Source of the DNA: an uncultured Mollicutes bacterium | GTDB taxonomy: Bacteria > Bacillota_I > Bacilli_A > Acholeplasmatales > Anaeroplasmataceae | NCBI GenBank assembly: GCA_945923475.1 | Contig: CAMELE010000015.1 | Coordinates: 1 to 44,224, forward strand | Direction: 5' to 3' | DNA: 44,224 nucleotides | In this document: positions 1 through 4,536 of the stretch, one piece after another | Numbering within the stretch: position 1 is the stretch's first letter | Layout of the letters: each line of letters opens with the position of its first letter | The notes under the pieces: model-generated | What the model was told of the DNA's origin: nothing | Database searches by the model: none | The model's input: the letters and a program-made list of their open reading frames with translations, nothing else | Position numbers and translations under genes: made by a program

Positions 1-93
1 TAAGATGTCTATAAACATAACATTTAATACAACTTCGTACTCCTTCAAAAAAGTTCGTACCCCTAAAAACAAAAGAAAAGCCATCCTCGAAGT

Positions 94-120
94 AAAATAG
101 ACCCTACAAAGTAGAATCTA
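94..120 (-). terminator. Terminator of the radical SAM cassette (bidirectional)
   Basis: On the minus strand a 10-bp stem, TAGATTCTAC / GTAGGGTCTA (two G-U pairs), closes a TTT loop and is followed by TTTT. On the plus strand the same hairpin is followed 4 nt later by seven Ts, so it may work both ways. It sits about 65 nt downstream of the stop codon of the second radical SAM gene. Confidence 0.5.
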
Positions 121-161
121 CACCTTTTTTTATTTGTGTCCTTGACTTGGGGTACTATTTA

Positions 162-182
162 TTGGTATCAATCCTATTGTCT
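162..182. repeat. Left copy of a 21-bp direct repeat flanking the cassette
   Basis: Begins TTGGTATCAAT and matches 2547-2567 at 18 of 21 positions. It abuts the end of the last cassette gene. The two copies bracket the whole radical SAM operon and its promoter region, so they could be a target duplication or attachment core; this is inference. Confidence 0.45.
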
Positions 183-183
183 A

Positions 184-1119
184 TTATGTGGCATTGGTCC
201 TTTCATGAATCCCAGCGTGCTTCCTATTTCTTTTTCCTGTGTTGTTTGAGCCTCTAACCTCTTCGTGATAGAAATAGTCAACGATTACTGGGTGACCTTT
301 TTTAGCCCTTCCATATGGTGTTTCGTTATCCACGAACGGGCAATCGTTGTCTTTGGCTAATTGCTCAGCCTCTTTTTCTAATTCTTCAAAATAGCTCCTG
401 TCTTTTTTCTTATATATCTTTTCGTATAAAGGATACAAATCAGTGTGGTTTTCTTTGATATAATCCATTATTTTCCCTTTGAATCCACCTCTTAGGTTAA
501 GGTTTTCAAGCCATATCAAATCGCATTGATCTTTAACCAATTCGAATATCTTCTTGAAATCCGTGATGCCTGGGAATACTGGCGAAATGAAGCATACCGT
601 TCTAATCCCGGCATCATACACTTCTTTCATTGCCTTTAGTTTTCTTTCTATTGACACAGAATCGTCCATATCGCTTCTGAAGCCTTCGTCTAAGGTGTTG
701 ATTGACCAAGAAACCGTGACTTTGTCGAATTTCTTTAACAAATCCAAATCCCTAACTACCAAATCGGATTTCGTGCATATCAATAGTTCTGCGTCAACGC
801 CCACCAATTGTTCCAATAGTTTTCTAGTGTTCTTGTATTTGGCTTCTTCTGGCAGATACCCATCGGTTACGGTCCCAATGATGATGTGCTCACCTTTGAA
901 TTTATCCAGATTCCTGATCGGCTGCCAGTTCTTGACATCCAAAAACGTTCCCCATTCTTCCGTGTGGCCCGTGAATCTTTTCATGAATGAGGCATAGCAG
1001 TATCTGCAGCCATGGGTGCATCCGACATAGGGGTTGACGCAATATCCTCCTATAGGGGCGCTGGATTTGGTCATTACGTCTTTGACTTGGATTTGCCTTA
1101 TGATTAAATTCTTATTCAT
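184..1119 (-). CDS. Radical SAM protein, mobile pair protein B type
   Basis: The 311-residue protein has the radical SAM signature CTHGCRYCYA near residue 33 (CxxxCxxC, the three Cys that bind the [4Fe-4S] cluster) after the conserved NPYVGC lead-in, so it should reductively cleave S-adenosylmethionine. The remainder resembles the SPL/Rv2578c-like radical SAM group. It is the last gene of a three-gene operon; its start overlaps the marR stop by 8 bp, indicating translational coupling. The layout of small radical SAM gene, MarR gene and larger radical SAM gene fits the family described as a radical SAM mobile pair. The substrate is unknown. Base composition is much richer in G+C than the genes beyond 2.6 kb, supporting recent transfer. 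Confidence 0.88.
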   Translation of the reverse strand: MNKNLIIRQIQVKDVMTKSSAPIGGYCVNPYVGCTHGCRYCYASFMKRFTGHTEEWGTFLDVKNWQPIRNLDKFKGEHIIIGTVTDGYLPEEAKYKNTRKLLEQLVGVDAELLICTKSDLVVRDLDLLKKFDKVTVSWSINTLDEGFRSDMDDSVSIERKLKAMKEVYDAGIRTVCFISPVFPGITDFKKIFELVKDQCDLIWLENLNLRGGFKGKIMDYIKENHTDLYPLYEKIYKKKDRSYFEELEKEAEQLAKDNDCPFVDNETPYGRAKKGHPVIVDYFYHEEVRGSNNTGKRNRKHAGIHERTNAT

Positions 1120-1543
1120 CTTTTAGATTCTCCTTTACCTTATTTAACAATCTATCTAACTCGCTTGCCTCTTCTTCGCTAAGGCCTTTGTAGAAAATAT
1201 CACCTATTCTTTTTGTGGCTCTATTTATCTTGCTTTCAAGCGAGAGTGTCTTGTTGCTTAAATAGATAATTAGACTCCTTTTGTCCTCTTTGGATTCCTC
1301 GACAATTAAAAGGCCGTCATTCTTCATCCTCTCCACCATCGAGGACAATGTTGTTTTAGCCAGAGAAGTCCTTTTCGATAATTCGATCAAGGAGAGTTTC
1401 TCGTCTTTCCATAAAGAAAATAAGATCCTCCCTTGCTGGCCGTTGAATTCGTATATGCCCTCTTCTTTTAGAATCTTGTTGAAAATCCTATCTTGAAGCT
1501 GCTTGATTTGAGAGATAAGAGTTCCACCGTATTGTTTTTTCAT
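1112..1543 (-). CDS. MarR family regulator of the radical SAM pair
   Basis: The 143-residue protein has a winged helix-turn-helix of MarR type: helices around residues 38-85 including SLAKTTLSSMVERM, then a wing with KEDKRS, and flanking helices for dimerisation. The start ATG overlaps the stop of the upstream radical SAM gene (ATGA) and its 3' end overlaps the next gene, so all three proteins are made from one transcript. MarR dimers bind palindromes; the perfect 14-bp palindrome inside the operon promoter at 2225-2238 is the obvious autoregulatory target. MarR proteins often sense small ligands or oxidants, but nothing here identifies the signal. Confidence 0.88.
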   Translation of the reverse strand: MKKQYGGTLISQIKQLQDRIFNKILKEEGIYEFNGQQGRILFSLWKDEKLSLIELSKRTSLAKTTLSSMVERMKNDGLLIVEESKEDKRSLIIYLSNKTLSLESKINRATKRIGDIFYKGLSEEEASELDRLLNKVKENLKDE

Positions 1544-2205
1544 TTCAATGCTTCCTCCATTTCTAAAGCGAGCTCTTGGATCGCGTTTTCTTCGCCCATA
1601 ATTTTATAAACAAGCTCTTCTTTGAAAAAAATCCTGCAGCCGCATTTTCTAGCGACAGCCACCAAATGATCGGCCCATTCCTTTTTGGCATCTATCTTGC
1701 CCTTGCATTTCCCGGTCTCTGTTCCGATGACTACCCATTTGATTCCCGATAAATCAATGTCGCCCAGATCCTCGAACAACGGCTCAAACGTGACGTGATA
1801 GTTCTTGCATTTGATATTTTCCCTTAATGCTTTCAACCTCCATAAATCCGATTTCGATGTGATGGTGACCCCCATCCAAGCATTATCGGGAATGTCGTCA
1901 AGCTTTATTTTATTTGGGGCTTTAGTCAAATATATCCCCACTGTTTTCGGAGATTCCCTCAATAATTCGAACGACTTATCAAGCCACTCCTTTTTCCATA
2001 GATACAAATCGGACATCCCCGTCAGAAAATATACTCCAGGCTTTCTTAATCTTTCCAATTTATGCAAATCTGCAATTGGCTTAGAGAAATCGTCTGTCAG
2101 GTGGAATCTATTTGCCACCGCTTTGGCGTAGCAGTACCTGCAGCCGATGTTGCAGCCGATGACCGCGTTGATGTTCTTAATCTTATTCTTAATGCTAATA
2201 ACCAT
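1540..2205 (-). CDS. Radical SAM protein, mobile pair protein A type
   Basis: The 221-residue protein carries CNIGCRYCYA near residue 18 (CxxxCxxC cluster motif) and, in its second half, WMGVTITSK and WVVIGTETG segments resembling the DUF5131 / phage Gp37-Gp68 radical SAM group. It is first in the operon. ATG at 2205 is preceded by AGGGTG at 5-nt spacing and by a promoter that holds a palindromic operator. Only about 220 residues long, so it is probably a partial barrel that may act with the second radical SAM protein. The reaction is unknown. Confidence 0.85.
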   Translation of the reverse strand: MVISIKNKIKNINAVIGCNIGCRYCYAKAVANRFHLTDDFSKPIADLHKLERLRKPGVYFLTGMSDLYLWKKEWLDKSFELLRESPKTVGIYLTKAPNKIKLDDIPDNAWMGVTITSKSDLWRLKALRENIKCKNYHVTFEPLFEDLGDIDLSGIKWVVIGTETGKCKGKIDAKKEWADHLVAVARKCGCRIFFKEELVYKIMGEENAIQELALEMEEALK

Positions 2206-2221
2206 TCAATCACCCTGATAT

Positions 2222-2250
2222 ATTGTACTATATAGTACTAGTTTTGTCTA
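2222..2250 (-). promoter_or_regulatory. Promoter of the radical SAM operon
   Basis: Reading on the minus strand: -35 TAGACA (2245-2250), 17-bp spacer, -10 TACAAT (2222-2227), about 17 nt before the first start codon. Confidence 0.7.
2225..2238. promoter_or_regulatory. Palindromic operator, likely MarR site
   Basis: GTACTATATAGTAC is a perfect 14-bp palindrome. It fills the spacer next to the -10 box and overlaps the first three -10 bases, so a bound dimer would block RNA polymerase. The regulator encoded as second gene of the operon is the natural binder (inference). Confidence 0.65.
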
Positions 2251-2380
2251 CCGTTTTGCCCTTAATTGTTCAGGGAAAGTTTAGAAAACATCCAAAATTT
2301 GGTGGCCAACTTCCATACAACCGCAAAAAAGGTCTTAAACATCTTCCCCTAGAGGCCTATTAACAGGGATTAAGGTATAT

Positions 2381-2428
2381 TCGTGCTTTTCGTGCTTTTT
2401 GTTAGTTAAATCGTGCTTTTCGTGCTTC
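2381..2428. repeat. Four copies of a 9-bp repeat in two tandem pairs
   Basis: TCGTGCTTT occurs at 2381 and 2390, and again at 2411 and 2420 (the last ends in C). The pairs are 30 bp apart, close to three helical turns, in the non-coding stretch 2251-2528 between the operon promoter and the tRNA-Glu terminator. The spacing suggests a protein-binding array such as recombinase arm sites or iterons, but the function is unknown. I see no gene in this stretch. Confidence 0.55.
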
Positions 2429-2528
2429 TTACAAATAGCAGTCGATAAAATGAGCAAATAAAAAAGGACTACTTCACCTGAATTAAAGCAAAAATAAGCC
2501 TAAAACAAGCAAAATAGCCTTAAAAATG

Positions 2529-2560
2529 AAAAAAGAACTGATATTTTTGGTATCAATTCT
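2529..2560 (-). terminator. Terminator of tRNA-Glu
   Basis: On the minus strand AGAATTGATA pairs with TATCAGTTCT (one mismatch) over a 7-nt loop, followed by TTTTT. It begins 13 nt after the tRNA CCA end. Confidence 0.7.
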
Positions 2561-2567
2561 GTTGTTT
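2547..2567. repeat. Right copy of the 21-bp direct repeat flanking the cassette
   Basis: Matches 162-182 at 18 of 21 positions. This copy overlaps the tRNA-Glu terminator hairpin, whereas the left copy has no hairpin partner, so the right copy is likely the ancestral sequence. Confidence 0.45.
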
Positions 2568-2572
2568 CAATA

Positions 2573-2647
2573 TGGTAGTCGAGACGGGAATCGAACCCGT
2601 GATTGAACCTTGAGAGGGTTCCGTCTTAACCACTTGACCACTCAACC
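2573..2647 (-). tRNA. tRNA-Glu (anticodon CUC)
   Basis: A full cloverleaf can be drawn: acceptor GGTTGAG with CTCGACT (two wobble pairs), D arm GTC/GAC, anticodon stem GAACC/GGTTC around loop CTCTCAA, T arm ACGGG-TTCGATT-CCCGT, then discriminator A and encoded CCA. The loop places CUC at positions 34-36, which reads GAG (Glu). The D-loop and T-arm closely follow the usual tRNA-Glu pattern. tRNA genes are common integration sites, and a foreign cassette lies just past its 3' end. Confidence 0.92.
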
Positions 2648-2715: not shown

Positions 2716-4536
2716 TTATTCTAATTCTAAATGACCTGTAGATAATTGATAATACTTACCATGCTGGCTAATTAAATCCTCATGGGTTCCTCTTTCAACA
2801 ATCCTTCCGTTTTCTAAAACCATAATCGCATTTGAATTTCTAACCGTAGATAATCTATGAGCAATTACAAATACCGTTTTTCCTTCCATTAAACGATCCA
2901 TGCCAGATTCAACTAATGCTTCTGTACGAGTATCAATTGAAGATGTAGCCTCATCTAAAATAAGAATTGGTCTTTTTGATACCATTGCTCTGGCAATTGA
3001 TATAAGCTGTCTTTGACCTGATGATAAATTATTACCATCCGAATATATCATTGTATTATATCCATTAGGCAGCCTTTTAATAAAGCCATGAGCATTTGCA
3101 AGCTTTGCAGCTTCTATTACATCTGAATCGCTTGCTTCTAGATTTCCATAACGGATATTATCCATAATTGTTCCCGTAAATAGATGAGTATCCTGTAATA
3201 CAATACCTAATGCCTTACGTAGATCATCCTTTTTAATCTCTTTAATATCAATTCCATCAATTAATATAGTACCCTTTTCTATTTCATAAAAGCGATTAAT
3301 TAGGTTTGTTATCGTTGTTTTTCCTGCTCCTGTAGCTCCAACAAAGGCTATTTTTTGGCCAGGGTGAGCATAAAGACTTAAATCCTTAAGTACCTTTTTA
3401 CCCTCCTTATAGGAAAAATCAACATCAATAAATTTAACATCACCAAGCAGTTTTATATATATTTCTTTATTCTTCCAATAAAATTCATTATCTTCTCTTA
3501 ACACTAACTCAACATTTCCGCCATCAACCTCAGGCTCTTCATCCATAAGCATAAATATTCTTTCCGCACCAGCAAGACCATTCAATAAAATGTTAGCTTG
3601 ATTCGTAAACCTGTTAATAGGCATAGTACCTTGTCTTACAAGCACTAAATATGAAGCAATTTTTCCTACTGTCATTGAAGTAGTTATAGGAAAATAGCCA
3701 AGAGCTATTAAACCGCCAAAAATCGCCACAATCGCATAATTAATATAACCCAACGATACAACCATAGGTATTAAAGAAAAACTATATCTTAATGCTTGAC
3801 ATGAGGTCTCTTTATACTTATTATTTCTTTCTTGGAACTCATTAATATTTTCTTCTTCATGGTTAAATACTTGAACTACTCTTTGACCAGAAACCATTTC
3901 TTCTACAAATCCATTAACTGATGCGATGACCTTAGAGGACTCATAAAATGCCTTCTTACTCTTTTTAGATGCATAAATAATATATGAAAACATAATCACA
4001 TAAAAAATCAAGCATATTAATGATAATAACCAATTTATTACAAATATTAAGATAAACATACCTACAATTTGAATGAAATTAGCAATTAGCAATGCAAAAG
4101 CATTATTTATAGCCTCAGAAACTGAATCTATATCGTTTACATATATACTCATAATTTCGCCATGTGTTCTTGAATCAAAATACTTTAAAGGAAGCTTATC
4201 CATCCTAATAAACATATCGTGACGCATTTCATATACTATTTTTTGAGCAAATCTACACATAATTTGGGTATATCCTAATGTTGATAAAAATCCAACCGAA
4301 TAAATCGAAGCCTCAAGTATAATCATCTTCCATAGTTGTGGGAAATACTCAGCTGTAGTATATTTATCAATTATTGGTTGAAACATATAGGTACCAAGCA
4401 AATTTGCAGATGATGATAGTATAACTAATATTCCTACAAATAATAGGGTTAACTTATGCTTGCCAATATAAGATAAAAATCTTTTTAATGTTTTCTTCAA
4501 ATTATTAGGTCTTTTACGAGCTTGCATTATTGCCAT
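2716..4536 (-). CDS. ABC exporter half-transporter, catalytically complete subunit
   Basis: The 606-residue type IV ABC exporter half has about six membrane segments (residues 30-320) and an ATPase domain: Walker A GATGAGKTT at 400-408, signature LSSGQ at 504-508, Walker B LILDEA with catalytic Glu529. ATG at 4536 follows AGGAGG at 8 nt. It overlaps the 3' end of its partner by 23 bp. The partner lacks the catalytic Glu, so the two form a heterodimer with one working and one degenerate ATP site, as in TM287/288- or BmrCD-like exporters. Substrate (drug, lipid or peptide) cannot be read from the sequence. Confidence 0.9.
   Translation of the reverse strand: MAIMQARKRPNNLKKTLKRFLSYIGKHKLTLLFVGILVILSSSANLLGTYMFQPIIDKYTTAEYFPQLWKMIILEASIYSVGFLSTLGYTQIMCRFAQKIVYEMRHDMFIRMDKLPLKYFDSRTHGEIMSIYVNDIDSVSEAINNAFALLIANFIQIVGMFILIFVINWLLSLICLIFYVIMFSYIIYASKKSKKAFYESSKVIASVNGFVEEMVSGQRVVQVFNHEEENINEFQERNNKYKETSCQALRYSFSLIPMVVSLGYINYAIVAIFGGLIALGYFPITTSMTVGKIASYLVLVRQGTMPINRFTNQANILLNGLAGAERIFMLMDEEPEVDGGNVELVLREDNEFYWKNKEIYIKLLGDVKFIDVDFSYKEGKKVLKDLSLYAHPGQKIAFVGATGAGKTTITNLINRFYEIEKGTILIDGIDIKEIKKDDLRKALGIVLQDTHLFTGTIMDNIRYGNLEASDSDVIEAAKLANAHGFIKRLPNGYNTMIYSDGNNLSSGQRQLISIARAMVSKRPILILDEATSSIDTRTEALVESGMDRLMEGKTVFVIAHRLSTVRNSNAIMVLENGRIVERGTHEDLISQHGKYYQLSTGHLELE

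Follow-up and report, generated by a model that had tools for sequence, protein, structure and literature searches.

The window analyzed here is a whole contig (C15) of 44,224 nucleotides from an uncultured Mollicutes bacterium of the Anaeroplasmataceae. Close to its first base, it carries an operon (184–2205, reverse strand) encoding two different radical S-adenosylmethionine (SAM) proteins, A and B, with a putative MarR-type repressor between them. The operon sits downstream of a tRNA-Glu gene, with 367 bp between the tRNA 3′ end and the start codon of A (Table 1). Neighboring genes overlap by 8 and 4 bp in the order A-MarR-B and were hence regarded as one operon, in agreement with the initial annotation of this DNA. 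The GC (guanine plus cytosine) content of the operon was 40.7%, compared to 29.5% in 395 host windows of equal length (standard deviation 1.8, maximum 33.6), and the GC at third codon positions was 0.47–0.54 in its genes and 0.16–0.27 in the host. The foreign composition proposed earlier from two short counts (31 G/C in 60 at 961–1020, 13 in 60 at 3241–3300) was thus borne out, and the counts themselves were right.

B scored 540 bits against the NCBIfam model TIGR04470 (rSAM_mob_pairB), above the cut-off of 410. A and MarR matched TIGR04471 and TIGR04472 over their full length with 252 bits (E 5.7e-75) and 132 bits (E 1.7e-38), respectively, which is below the cut-offs of 355 and 240; they are therefore divergent homologs and not above-cut-off members. 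Like the window genes, the NCBIfam 'radical SAM mobile pair' set stands adjacent on mobile DNA, but its usual order is MarR-A-B. Judged by profile scores and gene order, the operon is a divergent A-MarR-B branch of this set. The identity suggested in the initial annotation hence held in full for B, and for A and MarR only as divergent homology in a different gene order, while the set, already named in NCBIfam, is not an undescribed family. Our literature search found no paper on the radical SAM mobile pair, and no earlier description was found for the exact unit boundaries and the likely operator reported below, with which the tRNA target of the unit is also defined. Besides the cluster motif, C115, C176, C199 and C260 of B were conserved in 96–100% of 82 homologs. 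Between branches, B was 70–73% identical and A only 45–50%, making B by far the more conserved protein.

Table 1. Features of the operon and its surroundings (window coordinates).
Feature	Position	Strand	Basis and remarks
Paired GGGGTACGAAC / GAGTACGAAG repeats downstream of B	31..63	-	Sequence, by eye
Terminator-like hairpin downstream of B	97..121	-	
22-bp direct repeat, copy 2, just beyond the B stop	159..180		86% identical; repeat search
Radical SAM mobile pair protein B	184..1119	-	311 aa; CxxxCxxC at C34/C38/C41; TIGR04470 and Pfam Radical_SAM
MarR-type repressor (putative)	1112..1543	-	143 aa; TIGR04472 below cut-off, Pfam MarR
Radical SAM mobile pair protein A, DUF5131 type	1540..2205	-	221 aa; CxxxCxxC at C18/C22/C25; TIGR04471 below cut-off, PF07505 E 1.9e-27
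Operon promoter (predicted), TAGACA - 17 nt - TACAAT	2222..2250	-	Top sigma-70-like score of the region, 10/12 matches
Candidate MarR operator, perfect 14-bp palindrome GTACTATATAGTAC, inside the promoter	2225..2238	-	
Tandem AAAAGCACGAAAAGCACGA repeats inside the element end	2381..2430	-	Repeat search
tRNA-proximal element end, ~185 bp	2389..2572		90% identical copy adjoins tRNA-Thr, G000:C11:13891-14075
22-bp direct repeat, copy 1, half of the tRNA terminator	2544..2565		Repeat search
tRNA-Glu (CTC), integration target or boundary	2573..2647	-	ARAGORN, Rfam; G002 homology starts at the 3′ end

In a genome of the same genus (G002), DNA homologous to the window (83% identity) begins exactly at the 3′ end of the tRNA and runs into ABC transporter genes; on the operon side of the tRNA the two sequences diverge. 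This confirmed the position just past the tRNA 3′ end that had been noted in the initial annotation. The copy of the ~185-bp end on contig C11 of the own genome continues into a phage tape-measure-like fragment. By sequence, the same element end seems to stand behind both tRNA-Glu and tRNA-Thr. The DNA behind tRNA-Thr that carries this end (G000:C11:12958-13944, L139) holds a row of short orphan genes in addition to the tape-measure-like fragment. Copy 1 of the 22-bp direct repeat had three exact pattern matches genome-wide; the repeat falls in the terminator and not at the tRNA 3′ end, and the contig ends before the expected right junction. The contig starts at window base 1, and the element is cut there. 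The layout of the paired repeats downstream of B matches, by eye, that of GGGTGTCGG repeats which the L007-type unit, described below, carries ahead of its right end, and that of repeats in L005. The pair is present once in its own genome.

The extent of the element could be read from rumen relatives with the identical gene order, in which B is 85–92% identical to B of the window. Five of these (L007, L010, L011, L012 and L013) have in common a unit of 2302–2306 aligned bp with 98.8–99.5% pairwise identity and abrupt edges, and L009 aligns to it over 2230 bp with up to 99.9% identity. The gene content of the 2302-bp unit is A, MarR and B only, with no integrase. On the left, the unit begins directly at the CCA end of a tRNA-Met in L007, L010 and L013 (called by ARAGORN in L007 and L013, and assigned by eye from near-identical sequence in L010). 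The right edge reads CACCGCAACCA in the five genomes and TACCGCAACCA in L009, which is a copy of the tRNA 3′ end; in L007, L010 and L013, this second copy (CCGCAACCA) lies at the other end of the unit from the tRNA. In L012, the tRNA-Met locus (84% identical over 1.05 kb upstream) is empty and the tRNA runs directly into its own terminator, the unit being located 5.8 kb beyond. The left end of the L007-type unit was almost single-copy in each genome and was not found in the own genome of the window; the data therefore do not establish a large family of such units.

Two further arrangements were observed in this group. In L004 (B 91% identical to the window), a 20-bp site occurs three times, two of them flanking the operon, inside a prophage and beside DUF1492, HNH and terminase genes. 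In L005, the end of another B gene and a window-like B 3′ end are followed by the full operon, i.e. by a tandem copy. A NifX-like gene follows B directly in L005, and 1.2 kb beyond the tandem copy, on the far side of an XRE-nucleotidyltransferase gene, there is a HEARO (IscB-type omega RNA) match (L005:3564-3798). L007:9372-11500, L012:2103-4230 and L003:2637-4744 share a block of ~2.1 kb that overlaps the gene of an HtpG chaperone and is ~98% identical between them, whereas the pair operons of these genomes are only 78% identical (L003 compared to L007 and L012), which makes the HtpG block a second, apparently mobile block beside the pair. The distribution of the pair is sporadic (2 of 60 relatives, and 18 of 395 genomes of the class), and it is absent from both same-genus genomes. 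With the discrete unit in relatives, this agrees with the transferable, self-contained unit proposed in the initial annotation; a syntenic copy with host-like composition was not found in these comparisons. We conclude that the operon is real, foreign and mobile.

The branch with the order MarR-A-B is shared across phyla. Treponema putidum, T. socranskii, Ruminococcus bicirculans, Faecalibacterium, Roseburia, Blautia and others have the operon alone in common, as ~2.1–2.2 kb with 93.6–97.8% DNA identity, and the B proteins of Treponema and Ruminococcus are 97–98% identical. The shared stretch reaches from 70–100 bp before MarR (more in some) to the B stop or ~95 bp past it; the tail of the long form had no match in Rfam and folded no better than shuffled sequences. 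Many copies have TTCNNGTTTG at one or both ends. This sequence also flanks other small genes (in L070 and L063), and it recurs in Blautia luti (15 occurrences, compared to 1 in the reversed control). Ahead of the pair in L070, a small-gene array with a GyrI-like gene and a small membrane protein (L070:5638-6755) is bordered by TTCNNGTTTG(G)AGAATTGA sites.

Three positions of the MarR-A-B operon were seen in phages: L148 has it between the genes of a distal tail protein and a minor tail/head protein, L153 between those of terminase and portal, and L151 ahead of the tape measure gene. The first of these points is occupied in L148 and L196 and empty in five phages with 73–93% identity to L148 (L193–L195, L199 and L200), where the distal tail gene runs directly into the next gene. 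Other cargo occupies the same point in L197 (flavin reductase and an HxlR-like regulator) and L198 (a TfoX-like gene; all named by eye). Insertion between phage genes, with empty counterparts in related phages, is the phage moron pattern, and the sequence context places the MarR-A-B cassette within it; this was assessed on phages of that branch. The pair resembles phage morons and islands integrated at tRNA genes: it has its own promoter, and it is inserted either among the genes of a phage or behind a tRNA 3′ end, there with a tRNA-end repeat. It differs from tycheposons in that the unit is only 2.3 kb long, with three genes and no recombinase within. Tycheposons are described as 4–200 kb in size, and those in the paper carry a tyrosine recombinase (PMC10872708).

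The number of sigma-70-like sites in the region of the operon was at chance level in total, and the best of them was taken as the predicted promoter. The core of the palindrome inside it, CTATATAG, was found within 90 bp upstream of the operon start in 11 of 12 A-MarR-B and 21 of 34 MarR-A-B loci, and in none of 27 A-B loci without MarR or 5 B-only loci; these counts are not independent, as the loci are related, yet the branches differ in gene order and by ~28% in B. Shuffling gave an expectation of at most 0.003 sites per locus. Most of the MarR-containing loci without a site near the start have the flavin reductase gene first, and the site or a one-base variant then lies upstream of that gene in most cases. 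The simplest reading of this pattern is that MarR would autoregulate its own operon through the palindrome.

The genes of A and B lie side by side in 75 of 81 loci. The architectures were MarR-A-B (23), flavin reductase-A-B (16), A-MarR-B (13), A-B (12), flavin reductase-MarR-A-B (11), B alone (4) and others (2). A flavin reductase-like partner occurred in 28 loci, 27 of them A-B operons and one B-only. Fragments of A remain in some B-only loci. In L060:5066 and L062:7905, the start of A (~20 residues) stands before the B frame, as an in-frame deletion of A would leave it, and a cupin gene adjoins in L062. On Bacteroides plasmids, a metallo-beta-lactamase-fold protein overlaps A. Genes for SIR2-like, patatin and heavy-metal ATPase proteins are recurrent neighbors in one branch, and were set aside as partners because their position and strand vary. 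SIR2-like genes, several of them in tandem, and a patatin-like gene were seen upstream of the pair near flavin reductase-A-B or related operons in L015, L030, L039, L044, L048 and L073. Other neighbors were a macrodomain gene downstream of the pair in L018, and a second, different DUF5131 radical SAM gene in L057 (10408-11298), with similar genes in L041, L064 and L051, within 1.5–7 kb of the pair.

We tentatively favor, with slightly less than even confidence, a self-contained and self-regulated A-MarR-B accessory cassette that is induced by a ligand and integrates behind tRNA genes without an integrase of its own. MarR would repress its operon until an inducer is bound, and A and B would then be produced at the same time and work jointly, drawing on SAM and a low-potential electron. 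The flavin reductase-like protein, encoded in the same operon in a third of the relatives, probably feeds or accompanies redox chemistry, a type of chemistry suggested by its frequency beside the pair. The unit encodes no integrase and hence probably relied on one acting in trans for its movement. The most likely task of the pair would be to convert, upon induction, a toxic or damaged small molecule to the benefit of the host of the element. Such a host-fitness or detoxification role is suggested by the company of the cassette at the phage insertion point, where the other cargo (flavin reductase with regulator, TfoX-like gene) is of a fitness type rather than a defense type.

Several observations weigh against this reading. 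The contig ends 183 bp past B, so that the right junction with its expected copy of the tRNA-Glu 3′ end (GACTACCA) falls outside, and a second copy of the 23-bp tRNA-Glu end was not found in the own genome. The flavin reductase is absent from the branch of the window itself. The predicted model of B is only moderate, with a predicted local distance difference test score (pLDDT) of 69, compared to 81 for A. Moreover, metagenome-assembled genomes can be chimeric.

A role in nucleic-acid repair or RNA modification, in which A and B would be enzymes like spore photoproduct lyase (SPL) acting on DNA lesions or on tRNA or rRNA, appears rather unlikely. The best Foldseek match of both models was SPL bound to its lesion (4fhf; E 6.5e-3 for A, 2.8e-4 for B), B aligned with SPL-family proteins over 147 columns with 21% identity, and both proteins share with SPL the CxxxCxxC radical SAM [4Fe-4S] motif and, in their predicted models, the partial-barrel fold. 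The conservation of B between branches is unusually high, as expected for a universal substrate, and the pair in L. eligens has TtcA and an RNA 2′-phosphotransferase as neighbors, possibly by chance. However, the VIA Z scores of the best matches (near 10) were tied with those of NifB, viperin, lipoyl synthase and maturases of ribosomally synthesized and post-translationally modified peptides, so that the reaction cannot be read from the fold. The catalytic hydrogen-donor cysteine of SPL (C140 in the solved structures) corresponds to V84 in the invariant VTDG (IGxVTDG) of B and to GMSD (TGMSD) in A, neither of which has a cysteine; this position was taken from the shared motif and prior knowledge, and the aligned SPL-family sequences are also without that cysteine. 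Neither protein matched the SPL Pfam model used in the comparison (PF20903), and both differ from SPL in being shorter, paired and not linked to spores. Lacking the catalytic cysteine, A and B are unlikely to perform the known photoproduct-lyase chemistry, and the photoproduct-like repair raised in the initial annotation is unlikely as well. Three sequences from Bacilli (L233, L234 and L236) scored above the SPL Pfam cut-off without a cysteine at the catalytic motif, and PF20903 thus seems to take in non-canonical SPL. No solved homologs of the pair were found by sequence search, and B scored 125 and 102 bits against the models of the PA0069 and Rv2578c family radical SAM proteins (NF033668 and NF038135), far below their cut-offs of 360 and 430.

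Anti-phage defense, in which A-B would make a modified nucleotide or modify nucleic acid once MarR releases and so shield the lysogen or host from other phages, is less probable again. A matches the B-component models of two PADLOC candidate systems with a DUF5131 component, PDC-M30B and PDC-M41B (~1e-27), and copies of the pair were found in phages, on plasmids and in islands near restriction genes; the prophage copy in L004 lies beside a HATPase gene (weak MzaB match) and a PLD-nuclease gene, upstream of the HNH and terminase genes. A defense role is possible on these grounds, namely the DUF5131 homology of A to candidate models and the phage and island contexts, and on these only. DUF5131 is, however, a broad family, B and MarR matched no PDC-M30 or PDC-M41 partner, and B matched no defense model in a scan that, within the window, covered only the operon. 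Most neighbors are redox or regulatory genes, and regulation by MarR suggests a chemical cue.

We regard an assembly or binning artifact, by which the operon would have been wrongly joined to the contig, as very improbable. The assembly is fragmented (118 contigs) and the operon lies at a contig end with different GC content, but the joining 185-bp segment also abuts the second tRNA of the own genome, and close relatives hold the operon directly behind tRNA genes. An integron gene cassette is suggested by the discrete form of the cassette, by the short repeats that flank it on both sides in many hosts, and by integron integrases in both Treponema genomes. It was rejected as the least credible explanation, as an IntI search of 11 genomes and records gave no integrase above the integron cut-off in the own genome or in gut Firmicutes genomes, intI of T. 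putidum is separated from the pair by tens of kb, attC-like repeats were missing near the T. putidum copy in a repeat search, and neither the tRNA-end nor the TTCNNGTTTG ends are GTTRRRY.

Beyond the A-MarR-B cassette itself, it is possible, if somewhat doubtful, that the pair represents a class of hitchhikers. An integrase-less operon of ~2.3 kb would be mobilized in trans to tRNA 3′ ends in rumen Bacilli, and sister cassettes with other ends would insert into gene arrays and the structural regions of phages; what spreads with all of them would be one new MarR-switched two-enzyme radical SAM chemistry. So far, the mobile pair has been a family name without biology. The unit ends, the empty site, the likely operator and the phage insertion points make it testable, with the operator offering a route to the inducer and the inducer a route to the substrate. 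Its spread across phyla as DNA nearly without passengers suggests a strong, portable benefit from a two-enzyme radical reaction.

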